This document shows, one piece after another, positions 9,170 through 17,838 of a DNA stretch of 64,000 nt; within the stretch, counting starts at the first letter, position 1, and the number at the start of each line of letters is the position of its first letter. Origin of the DNA: Brevinematales bacterium (GTDB lineage Bacteria > Spirochaetota > Brevinematia > Brevinematales > Thermospiraceae). A program made the position numbers and the translations under genes. The DNA lies in the NCBI GenBank assembly GCA_013177995.1, contig JABLXN010000005.1, positions 1 to 64,000 on the forward strand, written 5' to 3'. The notes under the pieces were generated by a model, which did not search any database, was not told the origin of the DNA, and saw only the letters and a list, made by a program, of their open reading frames with translations.

Positions 9170-9601
9170 ATGGCAAAGAAACGGGTGCTTTTTGTGTGTA
9201 TTCACAATTCGGCGCGAAGTCAGATGGCAGAGGCTTTTTTGAATCGGATAGGAAAGGAATTTTTTGAAGCAGAGAGTGCCGGGCTTGAGCCAGGAAAGCT
9301 GAATCCTTTTGTTGTGGAAGTTATGGCGGAGATAGGGTATGATTTATCCAAGAATAAGACAAAATCCGTTTTTGATCTCTATAAGGCTGGAAAGACCTAT
9401 GATTATGTGATAACCGTCTGCGATCCTGAAGCCGCCGAGCGTTGTCCTATTTTTCCTGGAAAAGTGGAAAGGCTTCACTGGGGTTTTCGGGATCCTTCTT
9501 CCTTTCAGGGAACCGACGAGGAAAAGCGAGCCTTTACAAGACAGGTGAGAGACGAGATTCAAAAAGCAGTAGAAGAGTTTGTGAAAACATACAAGGGTTA
9601 A
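9170..9601 (+). CDS. Arsenate reductase-like protein (ArsC, thioredoxin-coupled type)
   Basis: Low-molecular-weight phosphatase fold enzyme expected to reduce arsenate to arsenite. The 143-residue protein has the P-loop VCIHNSARS with the nucleophilic cysteine at 10. A redox cysteine pair lies in [12 protein letters not shown] (about 84 and 92), which distinguishes ArsC from tyrosine phosphatases. The ATG at 9170 follows TTGGAGGATGT; an in-frame upstream extension runs through the repeat and is rejected. Its stop overlaps the convergent holB-like gene by 4 bp. No arsR or arsenite pump is adjacent. Confidence 0.92.
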
Positions 9602-10782
9602 CTTATTTTTCTCTTCTGCATCCATCGAGCCAGTTTGATGAGAAGATCGGTGAGAAGATAGGAAGGCTGGAGTGTACTCTTTTTGAGAGAGATTTTGAGA
9701 GAGAGGATTTCTCTTCTCCATTCTACAACTTCTGAAGTGTAGGGGAGAAATTTTTTCTCTTCTGTATTCGGATCCTTTTTCCCATGAATATTTTTCTGGT
9801 GATGGAGCCAGCGAAGTCTTAGCTCTTCAAGAAGACTATCCAAGAAAAATTGGGTTATCCATGGGCTTGCGGAAACCTGCTGGACAAAATCAAAAAGATC
9901 ATCGCCATACTGGACACGAAAGCCAAGGTCGTCAAGAAAGAATTTTGCGAACTGAGAAGCCTTTGAGTGTTCTTTGAAAAGAGATTCTCTCATATGAAGG
10001 GTACAACTTGGAAAGGAAGAAGGGGTCCCGAGGATCTCTTCGACAAGATGTGGAGAAAGAGAGGGCAGAGAAATCACGAGGCTTCGAGATACAATGGTGG
10101 GGAGAACATTTTCGATGGCATTGGTCTGGAGAATGATCCGGCTATTGAGTGGCATTTCTTCAAAGAGTTTCAGAGCGGCATTCTGGGCCTCAAGAGTAGC
10201 CATTTCCCAACCACCAATAAAGGTGAGACGGGGGGCATCACTGGTATACTGGTGAAAGTGAATAACCTCCTGAATAAAAGCGATAGGAATACTTTTTTTC
10301 TTTGTGATTTCCTCAGCAAGGGAAAGAATATGTTTTTTGAATTCTTCGTCTTCAAGAAGGGTTTTTGCAAAACCTTGTTGCATCAAAAGCGTATGAATGA
10401 GGGTTCGAAATTCATCGAGACTGTGAGAGTGTTTTTTATATGAGAGGTGGGAGGTCTTGATTTCCTTGAGAAGCATAAGCTGGGAAAGGTGGGCAAGAAA
10501 TTGAATACCCCATAGCTGGAGGTGAGAGGTTTGAAGTGGGGTGGGATGGGAGAGATAATAGGAGAGTTTCATGTCGTAGTCATCAGGTCGAAAAAATTGA
10601 AAAGAGGGAGAGAGAAGAAAGTCTTCCCCATACAGTTTGGCAAGGGTGGAAAGCACAAGAGAGGTTTTTCCAATTCCTGGTTCTCCACTCACGATGAGAA
10701 GTCTTCCCTGAGATTGGGTGAGAATACGTTCTAAGAGAAGAGGGTAGTGGCTATTGCCCTTCCAGGTAAACGAGGAGATCAT
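9598..10782 (-). CDS. holB: DNA polymerase III delta-prime subunit-like clamp-loader ATPase
   Basis: AAA+ clamp-loader component that helps load the sliding clamp. The 394 residues contain Walker A GEPGIGKT at about 33-40. The delta-prime hallmark block runs [11 protein letters not shown] ... [18 protein letters not shown], corresponding to NALLKTLEEPP ... LLPTIRSR. The P-loop is intact. The C-terminal half is divergent. The start codon overlaps the upstream PP2C regulator stop (ATGA), so it is translated from the pyrB-recJ-regulator operon. Delta-prime is more likely than another AAA+ protein because of the SRS motif. Confidence 0.82.
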
Positions 10783-11942
10783 GGGATTTTCTCCAGCATA
10801 AAGATAGTAACATCATCCTCAAAGTGGTAGGCGTACTCTTTGGCAATGCGATTATACAGGTTGGCCAAAGAAAATTTTCCATCTTTCTCTAACGAGGTGA
10901 GAATCTGCAGAAAACCGGAGATAGAAAGCATCTCCTTCGATGGAGATTGGATTTCATAGATGCCGTCGGTAAAGAAGAGAAGTCTTTTCCAGGACTTAGT
11001 GCTGAAGCTATTGAGATGAAAAATTGCCGGAGAAACCACCCCAATAGCCACGGAATTTTTGAGTTCTACCGTGGCAAAGGTCTCTGTTTGAACGATAGGG
11101 GGAGGAGAACCCGCAGAGATGAGATGAATAGTTTCTGATTCCTCATCACAGAGACCAAAGATCCCTGAGAGAAAGATTCCCATAGCGCCATATTCTTTTT
11201 CCATTTCCCCGTTGATCCATTCCACATACCTTTGAAGATGTTCAGCGGAGGCTAAAGACCTGGTGGCTATCCATTGCTGGGTGAGAAAGTTGAGATGAAA
11301 CCCCACAAGGGCTGCTCCAACGCCATGACCGGAAACATCCAACAGAAAGAAGAAGGTTTTTTCGTGGGGAAAACTGGTGGCAAAGTAAAAGTCTCCGCTG
11401 GCGATATTGTAGGGATGCCATATAACCTCAACATGGTGATGTTTCATGTGGAGGTTGGTCATCTTTTGAAATTTTTCCTGAACATGGGCTGCAAATCGGA
11501 TATCTTCTTCAAGGCGACGATTTTTTTCAAAAAGGCTTTTCATGGAGTAGTTTCTTGTGAGGATGTTGTTGATTCGGACTAAAACCTCAAGGGGATTACT
11601 TTCCTTGGGGATAAAGTCTTCCGCCCCCTGCTGAAGGCACTGAAGAATGAGATTTTCGTCTGAGGAATGAGAGAGAACAATTACGGGAAGATTTCTTGTT
11701 TTGATATTATTTTTGAGTGTTTTGAGAATATCCACGGCGGTTGTTTGGTGAAGGATCATGTCGAGAAGAACGAGGTCGGGGGGTTTGGTCAACATGGCCA
11801 CTAAAGCCTGGCTTTCCTGTTGAAAGGAGGTGATATGGGAAAATCCGGCGTCTTTGAGAATTTTCTCAAAGAGGCGCAGGCTGGTAGGTGAATCATCAAC
11901 AAGGAAGATGGAAGCATCGAGGATTTCCCGTTTTATCTGCAT
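10779..11942 (-). CDS. Response regulator with RsbU-type PP2C phosphatase output
   Basis: Signalling phosphatase predicted to dephosphorylate an anti-sigma antagonist (STAS protein) when its receiver is phosphorylated. Residues 1-125 form a receiver domain with acidic pair D16-D17, phospho-acceptor D61 (LVLLDMIL) and a lysine in EDFIPKES. A short coiled linker follows. Residues about 190-387 form a SpoIIE/RsbU phosphatase domain with metal-binding aspartates in SGDFYF, LDVSGHGVGAA and FFTDGIYE. Its natural partner could be the STAS/RsbW pair at 24.9-25.7 kb (inference). It sits between recJ (2-bp gap) and holB (4-bp overlap). Confidence 0.93.
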   Translation of the reverse strand: MQIKREILDASIFLVDDSPTSLRLFEKILKDAGFSHITSFQQESQALVAMLTKPPDLVLLDMILHQTTAVDILKTLKNNIKTRNLPVIVLSHSSDENLILQCLQQGAEDFIPKESNPLEVLVRINNILTRNYSMKSLFEKNRRLEEDIRFAAHVQEKFQKMTNLHMKHHHVEVIWHPYNIASGDFYFATSFPHEKTFFFLLDVSGHGVGAALVGFHLNFLTQQWIATRSLASAEHLQRYVEWINGEMEKEYGAMGIFLSGIFGLCDEESETIHLISAGSPPPIVQTETFATVELKNSVAIGVVSPAIFHLNSFSTKSWKRLLFFTDGIYEIQSPSKEMLSISGFLQILTSLEKDGKFSLANLYNRIAKEYAYHFEDDVTIFMLEKIP

Positions 11943-11944
11943 GG

Positions 11945-14215
11945 TTATCCCCTTTCGTAGGGATGAAGGGCTATATCCACTAAGTTGAGGCGTACCTGTT
12001 CTGTTGAGTTGTAGCGATTGATTTCAGGAACAGCCACGATATCAAACCACTGATCGGCAAACTTCTCAAAACCAAAATTGGTGAGGGTTTCCTTGAAAGC
12101 CCATCCCACCGCGGGAAGACTGGTCTCCCCTTTGACGACAAAACACTGAAAGTGGTCTTTTTGTTTTCCGAAAAAGTAGGTATTGGCGAGTTTCACTTTG
12201 GAGATAAAGAGACGGGGAAGTTCGTTTCCTGTTCCGATGGGTTCCATCATGGTTTCAAGATAGCGAAGGTTCTCAAGGGTGATGTCTGAGAGGCGGTCTA
12301 TTTCAAGGTCTATGACAATTTGATCCGGGGTAGCATCCTGTTGAGATTTTTCGTAGTATTCCAACACGCGTTCTTTGAAGATGGGAAGCTTTTCATTGGC
12401 TATTGTGAAGCCTCCGGCTGCCCTGTGTCCACCAAACTGCGAGAGAAGATCGCTACAGTGTTCAAGCATTTCGATCACGTTGAAATTGACGGCGCTTCGG
12501 ACGGATCCAATGGCTTCTTTGTCCTGGACCGCAATGACAACAACAGGTTTCTGGTACTGGAGAGAGAGTTTGTTGGAGAGAAGCCCCGTGGAATTTTTGG
12601 AAATTTCATTACTTTCGAGAATGATCACGGTTTCATCAAGGATCTCTGCGGTGAGTTTTTTTTCAATGTTTTTGAGGTTGTTGTCAAATTGCTGGCGACG
12701 TTCATTGTCCTTGTTTACGATGTGGCTGAGGAGTTCATCAACCTCATGGATTTTTGAGGAGAGGAGAAGTTCGACGCTGATGCTTGCCTGTCCTACTCGT
12801 CCCGGGGAATTAAGCATAGGGGCGATACCCCAGCCTATATCCTTGACACTCACCTTCTGGATGGGAATTTGTTGGGACTGGATGAGCTTGATGAGGCCAA
12901 TGGAGGAGTACTTGATAAACTCAAGGCCATTCTTGACGATAGTGCGGTTTTCGTTGACAAGTGGCATAATATCGGCTATGGTTCCAATGGCTGCTAAGCT
13001 CATGATGTCCTGAAGGGATTGAATGAGGGGGTGATTTCTTTGAAGGATCATGGACCTGTACACACGGGCACAGAGTTCTGCGTCGGCCGAGGCACGGTGA
13101 AGTTCAGAGGGATTCACATAGATGCCTAATTCTTCAGCCACGGTAGAGAGTTTGTGGTCTTTGATCTTTGGAAAGAGAATCTTGGAGAGTCGAAGGGTAT
13201 CTTCAATGGGGGGAGAAAAGTGTTTCCCGATGTGTTTTCTGATGGCCTGCTGGAGAAAACGCATGTCAAAATCGGCAATATTATGGCCAATGATTTTCTT
13301 ATTGGCGGTGAAGGACAAGAATTTTTCCAGGGCTTCTTTTGGGGGAATTCCGTCTCTCTCGAGCATTTCAGGGGTAATTCCCGTGAGTTGAGAGATCTCT
13401 TTTGGGAGAGGCTTCTCTGTCTTGAAAAAACATTGAAAGCGGTCTATCACAACGCCATTTTTGACCTTGACTGCCCCTATTTCGATAATATCATCACGTG
13501 AGGGATTGAGCCCTGTGGTTTCAATGTCGCAAAAGATGAGTTCCTGGTCATGGTATTCATGGAGAAAATGGGCTTCAAGAAGAGCCCAGGCAAGGTTCAT
13601 GGCCACGCTGGCACCACTCAGAAGGGGAAAGGGATACCCACTTTCAGGTATTTTGGGATTGATGAGAGCAAGGGCCTCGGGGAGTTGCTGCCGTGGTTCA
13701 TGGTGATCCGTAATAATGACGTCAAGTCCCAATTTTGAGGCGAGCTTGACCTCATCGATAGCAGTGATTCCACAATCCACCGTAATGATCAGATCAAATC
13801 CTTCAGAGGCTGCCCACTGAATAATATCGGTGGAAAGGCCATATTTATCATCTCCTTCTGGGACACGAAAAGCCACGTTGGCTTTGAGTCTGGACAGGGT
13901 CTTGTGAAGGATACTGGTCGCGGTCACACCATCGACGTCTTTATCTCCAAAGATAAGGATGTTTTCTCCTTCTTTGATGGCCCCAAGAATTCTTTTGACC
14001 GCTTTTTCCATATCCTTGAAGAGAAAGGGGGATGGGAGCTGAAGAAAATGTGGTTTTAAGTAGCCAAGGATTTGTTCCGTAGTTTGATACCCCCGATTGA
14101 TCAGGGTTTTCAGGAGAAGATCCATCACGGGGAAAGGAAGACAGGCCTTGATCTCCTGAAGCTTTTGTTTGGGGTTGGTGGGCATGATCCAGAGGCGATT
14201 CTTGACTGATACCAT
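11945..14215 (-). CDS. recJ: RecJ-type ssDNA exonuclease with inserted DnaQ-like 3'-5' exonuclease domain
   Basis: RecJ (DHH family) degrades single-stranded DNA 5' to 3' in repair and recombination. The 756 residues contain DHH motifs FGDKDVDGVTAT (about 90-100), TVDCGI (about 147), DHHEP (170-174) and SGASVAMNLAWAL (200-211). A complete DEDDh exonuclease of the DnaQ/PolC type follows at about 225-392: FCDIETTGL, GHNIADFDMRFL, and HRASADAELCARV. The RecJ fold then resumes with LAAIGTIADIMPLVNENR and a DHHA1/OB region (SQFGGHRAAGGFTI). Ordinary RecJ lacks the insert. Both sets of catalytic residues look intact. It lies 5 bp after pyrB; an alternative start is Met-11. Confidence 0.93.
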   Translation of the reverse strand: MVSVKNRLWIMPTNPKQKLQEIKACLPFPVMDLLLKTLINRGYQTTEQILGYLKPHFLQLPSPFLFKDMEKAVKRILGAIKEGENILIFGDKDVDGVTATSILHKTLSRLKANVAFRVPEGDDKYGLSTDIIQWAASEGFDLIITVDCGITAIDEVKLASKLGLDVIITDHHEPRQQLPEALALINPKIPESGYPFPLLSGASVAMNLAWALLEAHFLHEYHDQELIFCDIETTGLNPSRDDIIEIGAVKVKNGVVIDRFQCFFKTEKPLPKEISQLTGITPEMLERDGIPPKEALEKFLSFTANKKIIGHNIADFDMRFLQQAIRKHIGKHFSPPIEDTLRLSKILFPKIKDHKLSTVAEELGIYVNPSELHRASADAELCARVYRSMILQRNHPLIQSLQDIMSLAAIGTIADIMPLVNENRTIVKNGLEFIKYSSIGLIKLIQSQQIPIQKVSVKDIGWGIAPMLNSPGRVGQASISVELLLSSKIHEVDELLSHIVNKDNERRQQFDNNLKNIEKKLTAEILDETVIILESNEISKNSTGLLSNKLSLQYQKPVVVIAVQDKEAIGSVRSAVNFNVIEMLEHCSDLLSQFGGHRAAGGFTIANEKLPIFKERVLEYYEKSQQDATPDQIVIDLEIDRLSDITLENLRYLETMMEPIGTGNELPRLFISKVKLANTYFFGKQKDHFQCFVVKGETSLPAVGWAFKETLTNFGFEKFADQWFDIVAVPEINRYNSTEQVRLNLVDIALHPYERG

Positions 14216-15266: not shown

Positions 15267-15653
15267 ATGACAGGAAGTCTTGAGGATTATATTGAGGCCA
15301 TCTATCTTCTGGTGGAAAGTCATGGTTTTGCCAGAGTGAAGGAAATAGCCGAGAAACTTGGTGTTTCTAAACCCTCGGTGATCCAGGCACTCAGGCAACT
15401 CAGTCAGCAGGGTCTGATTGAACAGGAAAGGTATGGCTATATTCGTCTCACGGAAAGTGGTGAGAAAACGGCTTTTCGTGTTTTTAGGCGGCATTATCTT
15501 TTGAGAGATTTTCTGGTGGCACTTGGGGTGTCTTCAGAGACGGCCGAAAAAGATGCCTGTCAGATGGAACATATTGTGAGTGAGGAGACCATGAGGGTGA
15601 TAGAAGGGTTTTTGTCAAAACAACAGGGAGGAAGACATGATCGAGACGCTTGA
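15267..15653 (+). CDS. DtxR/MntR-family metal-dependent transcriptional regulator
   Basis: Winged-helix repressor that binds Fe2+ or Mn2+ and controls metal uptake. The 128-residue protein has SLEDYIEAIYLL at the N-terminus, a helix-turn-helix (about 25-50, IAEKLGVSKPSVIQALRQL), and metal-binding positions including DACQMEHIVSEET (Cys/Glu/His). It lacks the SH3-like third domain, so it is MntR-like in length. It overlaps feoB by 17 bp, so its own operon is the obvious target, and a palindrome overlaps the promoter. Confidence 0.93.
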   Translation: MTGSLEDYIEAIYLLVESHGFARVKEIAEKLGVSKPSVIQALRQLSQQGLIEQERYGYIRLTESGEKTAFRVFRRHYLLRDFLVALGVSSETAEKDACQMEHIVSEETMRVIEGFLSKQQGGRHDRDA

Positions 15654-17838
15654 TAGGGTTTTAGAGGGAAAACGATTTCGGGTGAAGCAGATACTCGGGG
15701 AGGGAAGGGGGTTTCATCGACTTCAGGAATTGGGACTCACATCTATTCAGGAGGGTGTGGTTATTCGAAATGGCAGGGGTCCTGTTTTGATAGCTATTCA
15801 GGGAAGACAGGTGGCGGTAGGCAGGGGGCTTGCTTCTCGGATTCAGGTAGAGGTGATGAGAGATTTTCGCTATAAACAGCTGGCCTTGATCGGTCAACCT
15901 AATTGTGGAAAAACCCTGATTTTCAATCGACTCACGGGTTCTAATCAGCATGTAGGGAATTGGCCTGGTGTTACCGTGGAGAGAAAAGAGGGAGTCACCC
16001 TGGTAGGAGGAACCCCCCTGCCTGTGATTGATCTACCCGGTATTTATAGTTTCTCCAGTCTCAGTGAAGAGGAAGAGGTAGCCAAGGCTTTTGTTTTAGG
16101 AGCACAAGATACCCTTTTTCTTCATGTATTGGATGCTACACATCTTGAGGCAAATCTTTATCTCACCGTTCAGTTGGCCCTGATGAGGATGCCCATGGTT
16201 CTTGTGGTCAATATGATGGATGAAGCGGAAAAGGAGGGGCTTTCCCTTGATTTGAAGAGACTTTCGGAACTCTTGGGGGTGCCTGTGGTGGGGATCTCTG
16301 CTCTCAAGGGAGAGGATATAGCAAGGCTCAAAGAGGTGATTCTGAGTGTTTTAGATAAGGAACTCTCTGTGTCTCTCAAATTAGGCCAGGATGAGGTGGC
16401 CATGGCTATAGAAAAGATAGCCGAGGTGTTTGCTTCGAGTGGGGTGACCTTTTCTTTCTGGAAGGCGTATAGTTTTCTTGAGAGTGGGGCGGAAGAGACT
16501 CAGAGTGAAGAGATCAGAAAAAAGATTTTTCAGATTCGAGAGGAACTGGCTGGCAGGGTAAAGAGGGATTTGGGAGGTGTGATGACAGAGTGGGTTCTGT
16601 CTCTCTGTATGGGAATTTCCCGGGAGGTGGTGAAGAGAAAGCTTATCTCTCTTCAGGCGAAGAGAAGGCTTACCGCCTTTCTTGATGCCCTTTTTCTTCA
16701 GCCCTTTGTTGGGATGGTGATATTTTTGGGTGTGATGGGAGGGATTTTTTATACCACCTTTCAGATTGGGGCGTGGCTTTCAGGTTATATAGAAGAAGGT
16801 TTTGCGTCTCTTGCTACCCTGAGTTCGCGTATACCTGTGCCCTGGCTGGCTTCTTTAGTTTCCGATGGGCTTATTGGGGGTGTGGGGAATGTCCTGGTGC
16901 TTTTTCCCTATATTGTGGTTATGTTTTTCTTGCTTTCTTTTCTTGAAGACTCGGGCTACATGGCACGAGGGACCTTTCTTGTGGATAGGTTTATGCACAA
17001 TTTGGGGCTTCATGGGAAGTCTTTTGTCCCACTTGTGTTGGGTTTTGGTTGTTCGGTGCCGGCTCTCATGTCCACCCGTATGTTGGATAACAAGGGGGAT
17101 AAACTCAAAACGATGATGATGATCCCATTTTTTTCCTGTTCGGCACGTATGCCGGTTTTTACCCTTTTTGCGGCGGCCTTTTTTGGCAAAGAGGGATGGA
17201 TCATGGTGCTTCTTTTGTACCTGATAGGGATAGGGGTGGCTATAGCGACGGCCTGGTGGTTGAATAAAACCCTTCTCAAGGAACATTCTGAGGGGCTTAT
17301 TATGGAATTACCTGTTTACAGAATGCCTGCCCCACTCAATCTCTGGAGTAATACCTGGCTGAGAAGTAAGGAATACCTTGTTCGGGCGGGGAGTATTCTT
17401 CTTGTTTTTTCTCTTGTGCTCTGGGTTTTGTCGGTGCTTCCCTGGGGAGTGGAAGTAGGTTCGGCCGATTCGCTTATTGGTCTCATAGGAAAATCTCTTG
17501 CCTGGATATTTTCCCCTTTGGGTTTTGACTGGAAGATGACGGTGGCTTTAGTTAACGGCTTTTTTGCCAAGGAAATTGTTATTTCTACTCTTGGGGTCCT
17601 ATATGGGGGTGGAGAGGAAGGGCTTTCGGTTCTTTTACCCCGCATGATGAGTTTACCCACCATGGTTTCGTATATGGTCTTTGTGCTTTTGTATATTCCC
17701 TGTGCAGCCACTGTGGCTACCCTTCGGGCAGAAAGCAGGTCCTGGAAATGGACTTTGTTTGCCATTTTTTACGGACTTGTGGTGGCGTGGGTACTGGCGT
17801 TTGTGGCTCGATGGTTCGTAGGGCTTGTGGTGGGGTGA
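15637..17838 (+). CDS. feoB: Ferrous iron transporter FeoB with fused FeoA domain
   Basis: Inner-membrane GTP-gated Fe2+ uptake. The 733 residues begin with a FeoA/SH3-like domain (about 1-75). Then comes a G domain: G1 GQPNCGKTLIFN, G3 DLPGIYSF, G4 NMMDE. A helical GDI-like region and polytopic membrane domain follow, with two gate repeats and the metal-path motif FSCSARMPVF. All G motifs are intact. The start overlaps the regulator gene, with GGGAGGAAG ahead of ATG. The FeoA domain is normally a separate protein or occasionally fused. Fe2+ uptake fits reducing habitats. Confidence 0.96.
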   Translation: MIETLDRVLEGKRFRVKQILGEGRGFHRLQELGLTSIQEGVVIRNGRGPVLIAIQGRQVAVGRGLASRIQVEVMRDFRYKQLALIGQPNCGKTLIFNRLTGSNQHVGNWPGVTVERKEGVTLVGGTPLPVIDLPGIYSFSSLSEEEEVAKAFVLGAQDTLFLHVLDATHLEANLYLTVQLALMRMPMVLVVNMMDEAEKEGLSLDLKRLSELLGVPVVGISALKGEDIARLKEVILSVLDKELSVSLKLGQDEVAMAIEKIAEVFASSGVTFSFWKAYSFLESGAEETQSEEIRKKIFQIREELAGRVKRDLGGVMTEWVLSLCMGISREVVKRKLISLQAKRRLTAFLDALFLQPFVGMVIFLGVMGGIFYTTFQIGAWLSGYIEEGFASLATLSSRIPVPWLASLVSDGLIGGVGNVLVLFPYIVVMFFLLSFLEDSGYMARGTFLVDRFMHNLGLHGKSFVPLVLGFGCSVPALMSTRMLDNKGDKLKTMMMIPFFSCSARMPVFTLFAAAFFGKEGWIMVLLLYLIGIGVAIATAWWLNKTLLKEHSEGLIMELPVYRMPAPLNLWSNTWLRSKEYLVRAGSILLVFSLVLWVLSVLPWGVEVGSADSLIGLIGKSLAWIFSPLGFDWKMTVALVNGFFAKEIVISTLGVLYGGGEEGLSVLLPRMMSLPTMVSYMVFVLLYIPCAATVATLRAESRSWKWTLFAIFYGLVVAWVLAFVARWFVGLVVG

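Follow-up and report, generated by a model that had tools for sequence, protein, structure and literature searches.

A RecJ protein of Brevinematales with a DnaQ-type exonuclease nested inside its DHH domain

We find that the recJ gene of a Brevinematales bacterium encodes, in one polypeptide, the domains of a bacterial RecJ and a complete DnaQ-type DEDDh exonuclease, which is nested inside the DHH domain. We regard it as probable that the protein is a bifunctional RecJ, that the DEDDh domain was inserted once and early, and that lineage-specific decay followed. A more specific reading, in which a single polypeptide degrades ssDNA from both ends, the insertion occurred once in an ancestor of most Spirochaetota and the two sites were lost reciprocally, appears to us evenly balanced.

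Results

The window, that is, the whole stretch of DNA analysed (64,000 nucleotides), carries recJ-exo as a single, unbroken reading frame (Table 1). The encoded protein matches the TIGR00644 recJ model over residues 33-746, scoring 459.9 bits against a curated cut-off of 396.9, and its DHH, DHHA1 and OB domains stand in the usual RecJ order. The RNase_T domain within this frame aligns with its full profile (1-164 of 164) at 113.1 bits against a cut-off of 24, and the PF01368 alignment covers positions 1-104 of the 125 in the DHH profile, indicating that the model halts where the insertion begins. From SGASVA to LAAIGTIAD the protein has 199 residues between the motifs, as compared with 14-34 in RecJs of other phyla, and the insertion point lies past SGASVA and its helix and ahead of GTIAD, inside the DHH domain. 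A sequence-only reading of this DNA had claimed a complete DnaQ-type exonuclease within the DHH fold, not at a terminus, and both the order of the Pfam domains and the 199-residue segment agree with it.

Table 1. Features of recJ-exo and of the neighbouring holB-like gene, in window coordinates
Feature	Position	Strand	Residues	Remarks
recJ-exo, RecJ whose DHH domain contains a DnaQ-type exonuclease	11945..14215	-		756 aa
DHH domain, first part, through SGASVA and its helix	13577..13963	-	85-213	Pfam PF01368
DHH motif I GDKDVDG	13928..13948	-	90-96	
DHH signature Asp-His-His	13700..13708	-	170-172	no variation in RecJ alignment
Inserted DnaQ-type DEDDh exonuclease	13058..13537	-	227-386	Pfam PF00929, 2.5e-32
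Exo I motif	13520..13528	-	D230 and E232	kept in 16/16 active-type inserts
Exo II motif	13265..13267	-	D317	kept in 16/16 active-type inserts
Exo III motif	13082..13099	-	H373 to D378	kept in 16/16 active-type inserts
DHH domain, second part, GTIAD resuming past the insert	12971..12985	-	411-415	
DHHA1 domain	12353..12631	-	529-621	Pfam PF02272
RecJ OB domain	11975..12313	-	635-747	Pfam PF17768
HolB-like DNA polymerase III delta-prime	9598..10782	-		PF13177

Structure prediction, which the same reading had proposed as a check, yields a confident model with a RecJ fold and a DnaQ fold in one chain. With 29 relatives as input, AlphaFold2 models the whole chain at a pLDDT of 91.1 and a pTM of 0.91. 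Foldseek matches this chain to the RecJ of S. aureus (8e-40) and to that of D. radiodurans bound to DNA (TMt 0.68), the RecJ-fold matches including 8y30 and 5f56; over the insert it finds DnaQ 8h2f, with a TMt of 0.90 and an rmsd of 1.9, and the epsilon subunit of E. coli, with a TMt of 0.86. In the model the insert begins past the helix formed by residues 201-217 and rejoins GTIAD via a long helix, residues 395-414.

The DEDDh set of the insert consists of D230, E232, D317, H373 and D378, and it is identical in all 16 active-type inserts despite an identity of 33-50% between families for the whole proteins that bear them. Four of these residues had been assigned correctly from the sequence alone; the remaining one, previously placed in a "D315 region", is D317, the Asp of the FD motif. 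By sequence, the nearest solved exonuclease to the insert is the exonuclease domain of T. maritima PolC. Likewise, all RecJ motifs are found in the 756-residue protein (GDKDVDG, TVDCGIT, TDHHEP, GTIAD and GHRAAGG), in line with the RecJ catalytic pattern GDxDxDG, DHH, GTxAD and GGHxxAGG. Judged by these motifs, the RecJ (DHH) and the DEDDh active sites both look intact. In Brevinematales the embedded exonuclease is demonstrably under purifying selection; for pairs with unsaturated dS, dN/dS is 0.09-0.12 in the exonuclease region vs 0.014-0.084 in the RecJ domains, the former evolving somewhat faster.

The closest named relative is Brevinematales bacterium SKW221 (89% identical). The same architecture is present in 12 other Brevinematales genomes, one of them single-contig; in G011, a Brevinematales genome that is 73% complete, recJ is split across two frames. 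Outside the order, the active-type architecture occurs in families f17 (G029) and f26 (G041, G051), so that the identical insertion point, which the sequence-only reading had suggested looking for elsewhere, is found throughout Brevinematales and in these two families. Among the 60 relatives searched, the RecJ insert is the sole PF00929 match in 12 of the 13 Brevinematales genomes (G009 has a second), and the whole genomes of family f5, which belongs to the same class, contain no PF00929 match. Across the sampled families of Spirochaetota most RecJs bear an insert of 50-199 residues, mostly about 160, at the identical site. No relative was found in the viral contigs searched, and the RecJs present in phage records all fall short of 80% of the query, indicating that these records contain no phage copy of the architecture.

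The inserts of about 160 residues in RecJs of Treponema, Sphaerochaeta and similar genera lack the DEDDh residues. Aligned with the active insert after the RecJ flanks are trimmed, they give an hhalign E of 7e-7 and a score of 44.9, whereas none of 60 column shuffles scores above 26.3. The AlphaFold2 model of such an insert (pLDDT 90) has the order beta-beta-beta-alpha-beta-alpha, and its closest counterparts in the PDB are the exonuclease domains of S. aureus DinG (prob 1.00, TMq 0.61) and of T. maritima PolC. The insert of Treponema- and Sphaerochaeta-type RecJs is a DnaQ-like fold minus its catalytic residues. Sequence similarity to DnaQ is no better than chance for the inserts of f5, f8/f27, f10/f21 and Borrelia taken alone; the f14 insert scores 23.8 vs a shuffle maximum of 18.6, and for the f14 and f24/f15 inserts the weak signal is no more than suggestive of DnaQ homology. 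Given that the DEDDh residues are lost across much of the phylum, DEDDh activity is dispensable there.

The opposite loss is seen in two genomes of another class, where DEDDh is kept and the DHH motifs are destroyed or missing. In G048 (76% complete) a RecJ without the insert (L134) occurs along with a RecJ-derived protein (L107:348-2513) in which the exonuclease residues are intact and the DHH motifs have degraded to TDKDSEG, IDTVN and SIIFN. The two halves of the latter match RecJ profiles with E of 1e-20 and 9e-10, and score 126 and 73 vs at most 19 and 21 when shuffled. G037 (81% complete) encodes a 489-residue protein (L166:1126-2592) with an intact exonuclease domain and little recognisable RecJ remaining. 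Both L107 and L166 adjoin an upstream gene that by eye resembles thymidine phosphorylase. The sequence-only reading had recognised neither this reciprocal loss nor the spread of the insert, mostly in catalytically depleted form, across Spirochaetota RecJs.

A question follows, is the insert mainly a structural, DNA-binding or partner-binding module, its DEDDh activity being incidental or weak even in Brevinematales? Many Spirochaetota retain this fold as an insert that lacks catalytic residues, which indicates that the fold is valuable without catalysis. However, the invariance of the five DEDDh residues in the otherwise diverged active-type proteins, and the DEDDh half outliving the DHH half in G048 and G037, speak against such a module, and we consider it unlikely.

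All inserts of Spirochaetota RecJs are likely to derive from one insertion, because the insert-bearing RecJs share one side of a single branch. In a RecJ tree built with the insert columns left out, 38 insert-bearing rows lie on one side of this branch (100/93), and four insert-less spirochaetal RecJs group on the other-phylum side. In a tree of active exonuclease domains the inserts do not form one clade, as would be expected if active DnaQ domains had been inserted independently at one permissive spot, instead of being gained once and then decaying. Yet a single clade is disfavoured, not rejected (p-AU 0.11), one change suffices for the presence of the insert on the RecJ core tree, and the vestigial inserts score higher to RecJ inserts than to stand-alone DnaQs (medians of 21 and 16, with a p-value that is overstated since the rows are mutually related). 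Independent insertion is in our view improbable.

The surroundings of the gene bear on yet another reading, that the DEDDh domain is the proofreading exonuclease of the replicase, with the adjacency of recJ and holB as the link to replication. Linkage of recJ to holB is seen in three families, f2, f4 and f1, the last with a single intervening gene, and, as noted above, almost all Brevinematales genomes have their only RNase_T domain in RecJ. Nevertheless, in the DnaE of this genome none of the nine PHP metal ligands is missing (HHDHEHCDH), a pattern classed as that of an active intrinsic proofreader (PMC12926913), and f5, of the same class, does without any PF00929 match. We therefore hold a replicase proofreader to be very improbable. 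By comparison with known systems, Pol III epsilon is a stand-alone subunit bound to DnaE, whereas the domain described here is embedded in RecJ, and the DnaE of this genome has an intact PHP site. Finally, an assembly artefact joining two genes, the outcome that the sequence-only reading had named as fatal to it, is ruled out, because the architecture is shared by other genomes of the order, including the single-contig one, and by f17 and f26.

Other features of the locus and genome were recorded. The gene that separates the holB-like gene from recJ in this genus (9598-11942) encodes a response-regulator/SpoIIE phosphatase, and at 15267-17838 lie a DtxR-like regulator and then an ORF that by eye resembles a FeoA-FeoB fusion. 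Exonuclease VII is present, as is, in this genus, a Pol I with its DEDDy domain. Families f2 and f3 have a second DnaE-like polymerase (genomes G003, G004, G006, G007, G009), of which no copy was detected in f1 or f4.

Discussion

We found no description of a RecJ whose DHH domain encloses a DnaQ-type exonuclease in the open-access literature searched on RecJ with DnaQ, insertion, Spirochaetes and Brevinema, and the possibility raised at the outset, that this architecture was already well described in the lineage, finds no support there. The protein shares its domain order and all catalytic motifs with bacterial RecJ (TIGR00644; solved for D. radiodurans, T. thermophilus and S. aureus), from which it differs by some 170-180 added residues inside the DHH domain that are predicted to fold as a complete DEDDh exonuclease. 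PolC is the nearest architectural parallel: there, too, a DnaQ-type exonuclease lies within another domain (PMC3919608), and this exonuclease (domain 2p1j) is the nearest in sequence type. There the exonuclease sits in the PHP domain of a C-family polymerase and proofreads, and some PolCs are without the insert (PMC3919608), whereas here the host is the DHH domain of a 5'-3' nuclease family. S. aureus DinG also combines a DEDDh exonuclease with a DNA repair enzyme, the exonuclease being terminal on a helicase and not nested (PMC12345164). Within the RecJ family, archaeal RecJ/GAN and Cdc45 have extra domains in the DHH region as well, the archaeal MBD between motifs IV and V and the additional insertion of Cdc45 between III and IIIa; both are non-nuclease, and Cdc45 has also lost nuclease activity (PMC5615345).

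DEDDh enzymes are 3'-5' exonucleases, and RecJ resects 5' ends, leaving 3' ends to separate partners. DHH-family RecJ degrades ssDNA in the 5'-3' direction (PMC4846377). In the bifunctional RecJ that we favour, the outer DHH, DHHA1 and OB domains would constitute an ordinary bacterial RecJ, a predicted 5'-3' ssDNA exonuclease, into which a DEDDh exonuclease of the PolC/DnaQ kind, predicted to act 3'-5', would have been inserted once, early in the insert-bearing Spirochaetota, at a point bounded by the helix that follows SGxxVA and by the metal-binding motif GTxAD. Brevinematales, f17 and f26 would have retained both sites; many other Spirochaetota would have lost the DEDDh residues and kept a structural remnant; and in one class, where an insert-less RecJ is present, the old protein would have been reduced to its DEDDh half. 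The likeliest role of the DEDDh half is in repair, where it would degrade 3' ssDNA ends in gap, mismatch or recombination processing, alongside 5' resection by RecJ. Our data establish the architecture with its motifs and distribution, the purifying selection and the homology of the inserts of about 160 residues; we infer the catalytic activity, polarity and substrate of the two sites, as well as any coupling between them. It is conceivable, as a guess, that both sites act on one substrate, for example by trimming strands of either type where there is a gap or a flap, as was suggested from the sequence.

The comparison explains the extra 160 or so residues of Treponema-type RecJ as an exonuclease fold missing its active site. 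A natural fusion of both polarities in one rigid protein, if true, would offer a direct route to asking whether bidirectional excision is coordinated, and the relatives that carry both sites, DHH only or DEDDh only form a natural separation-of-function series.
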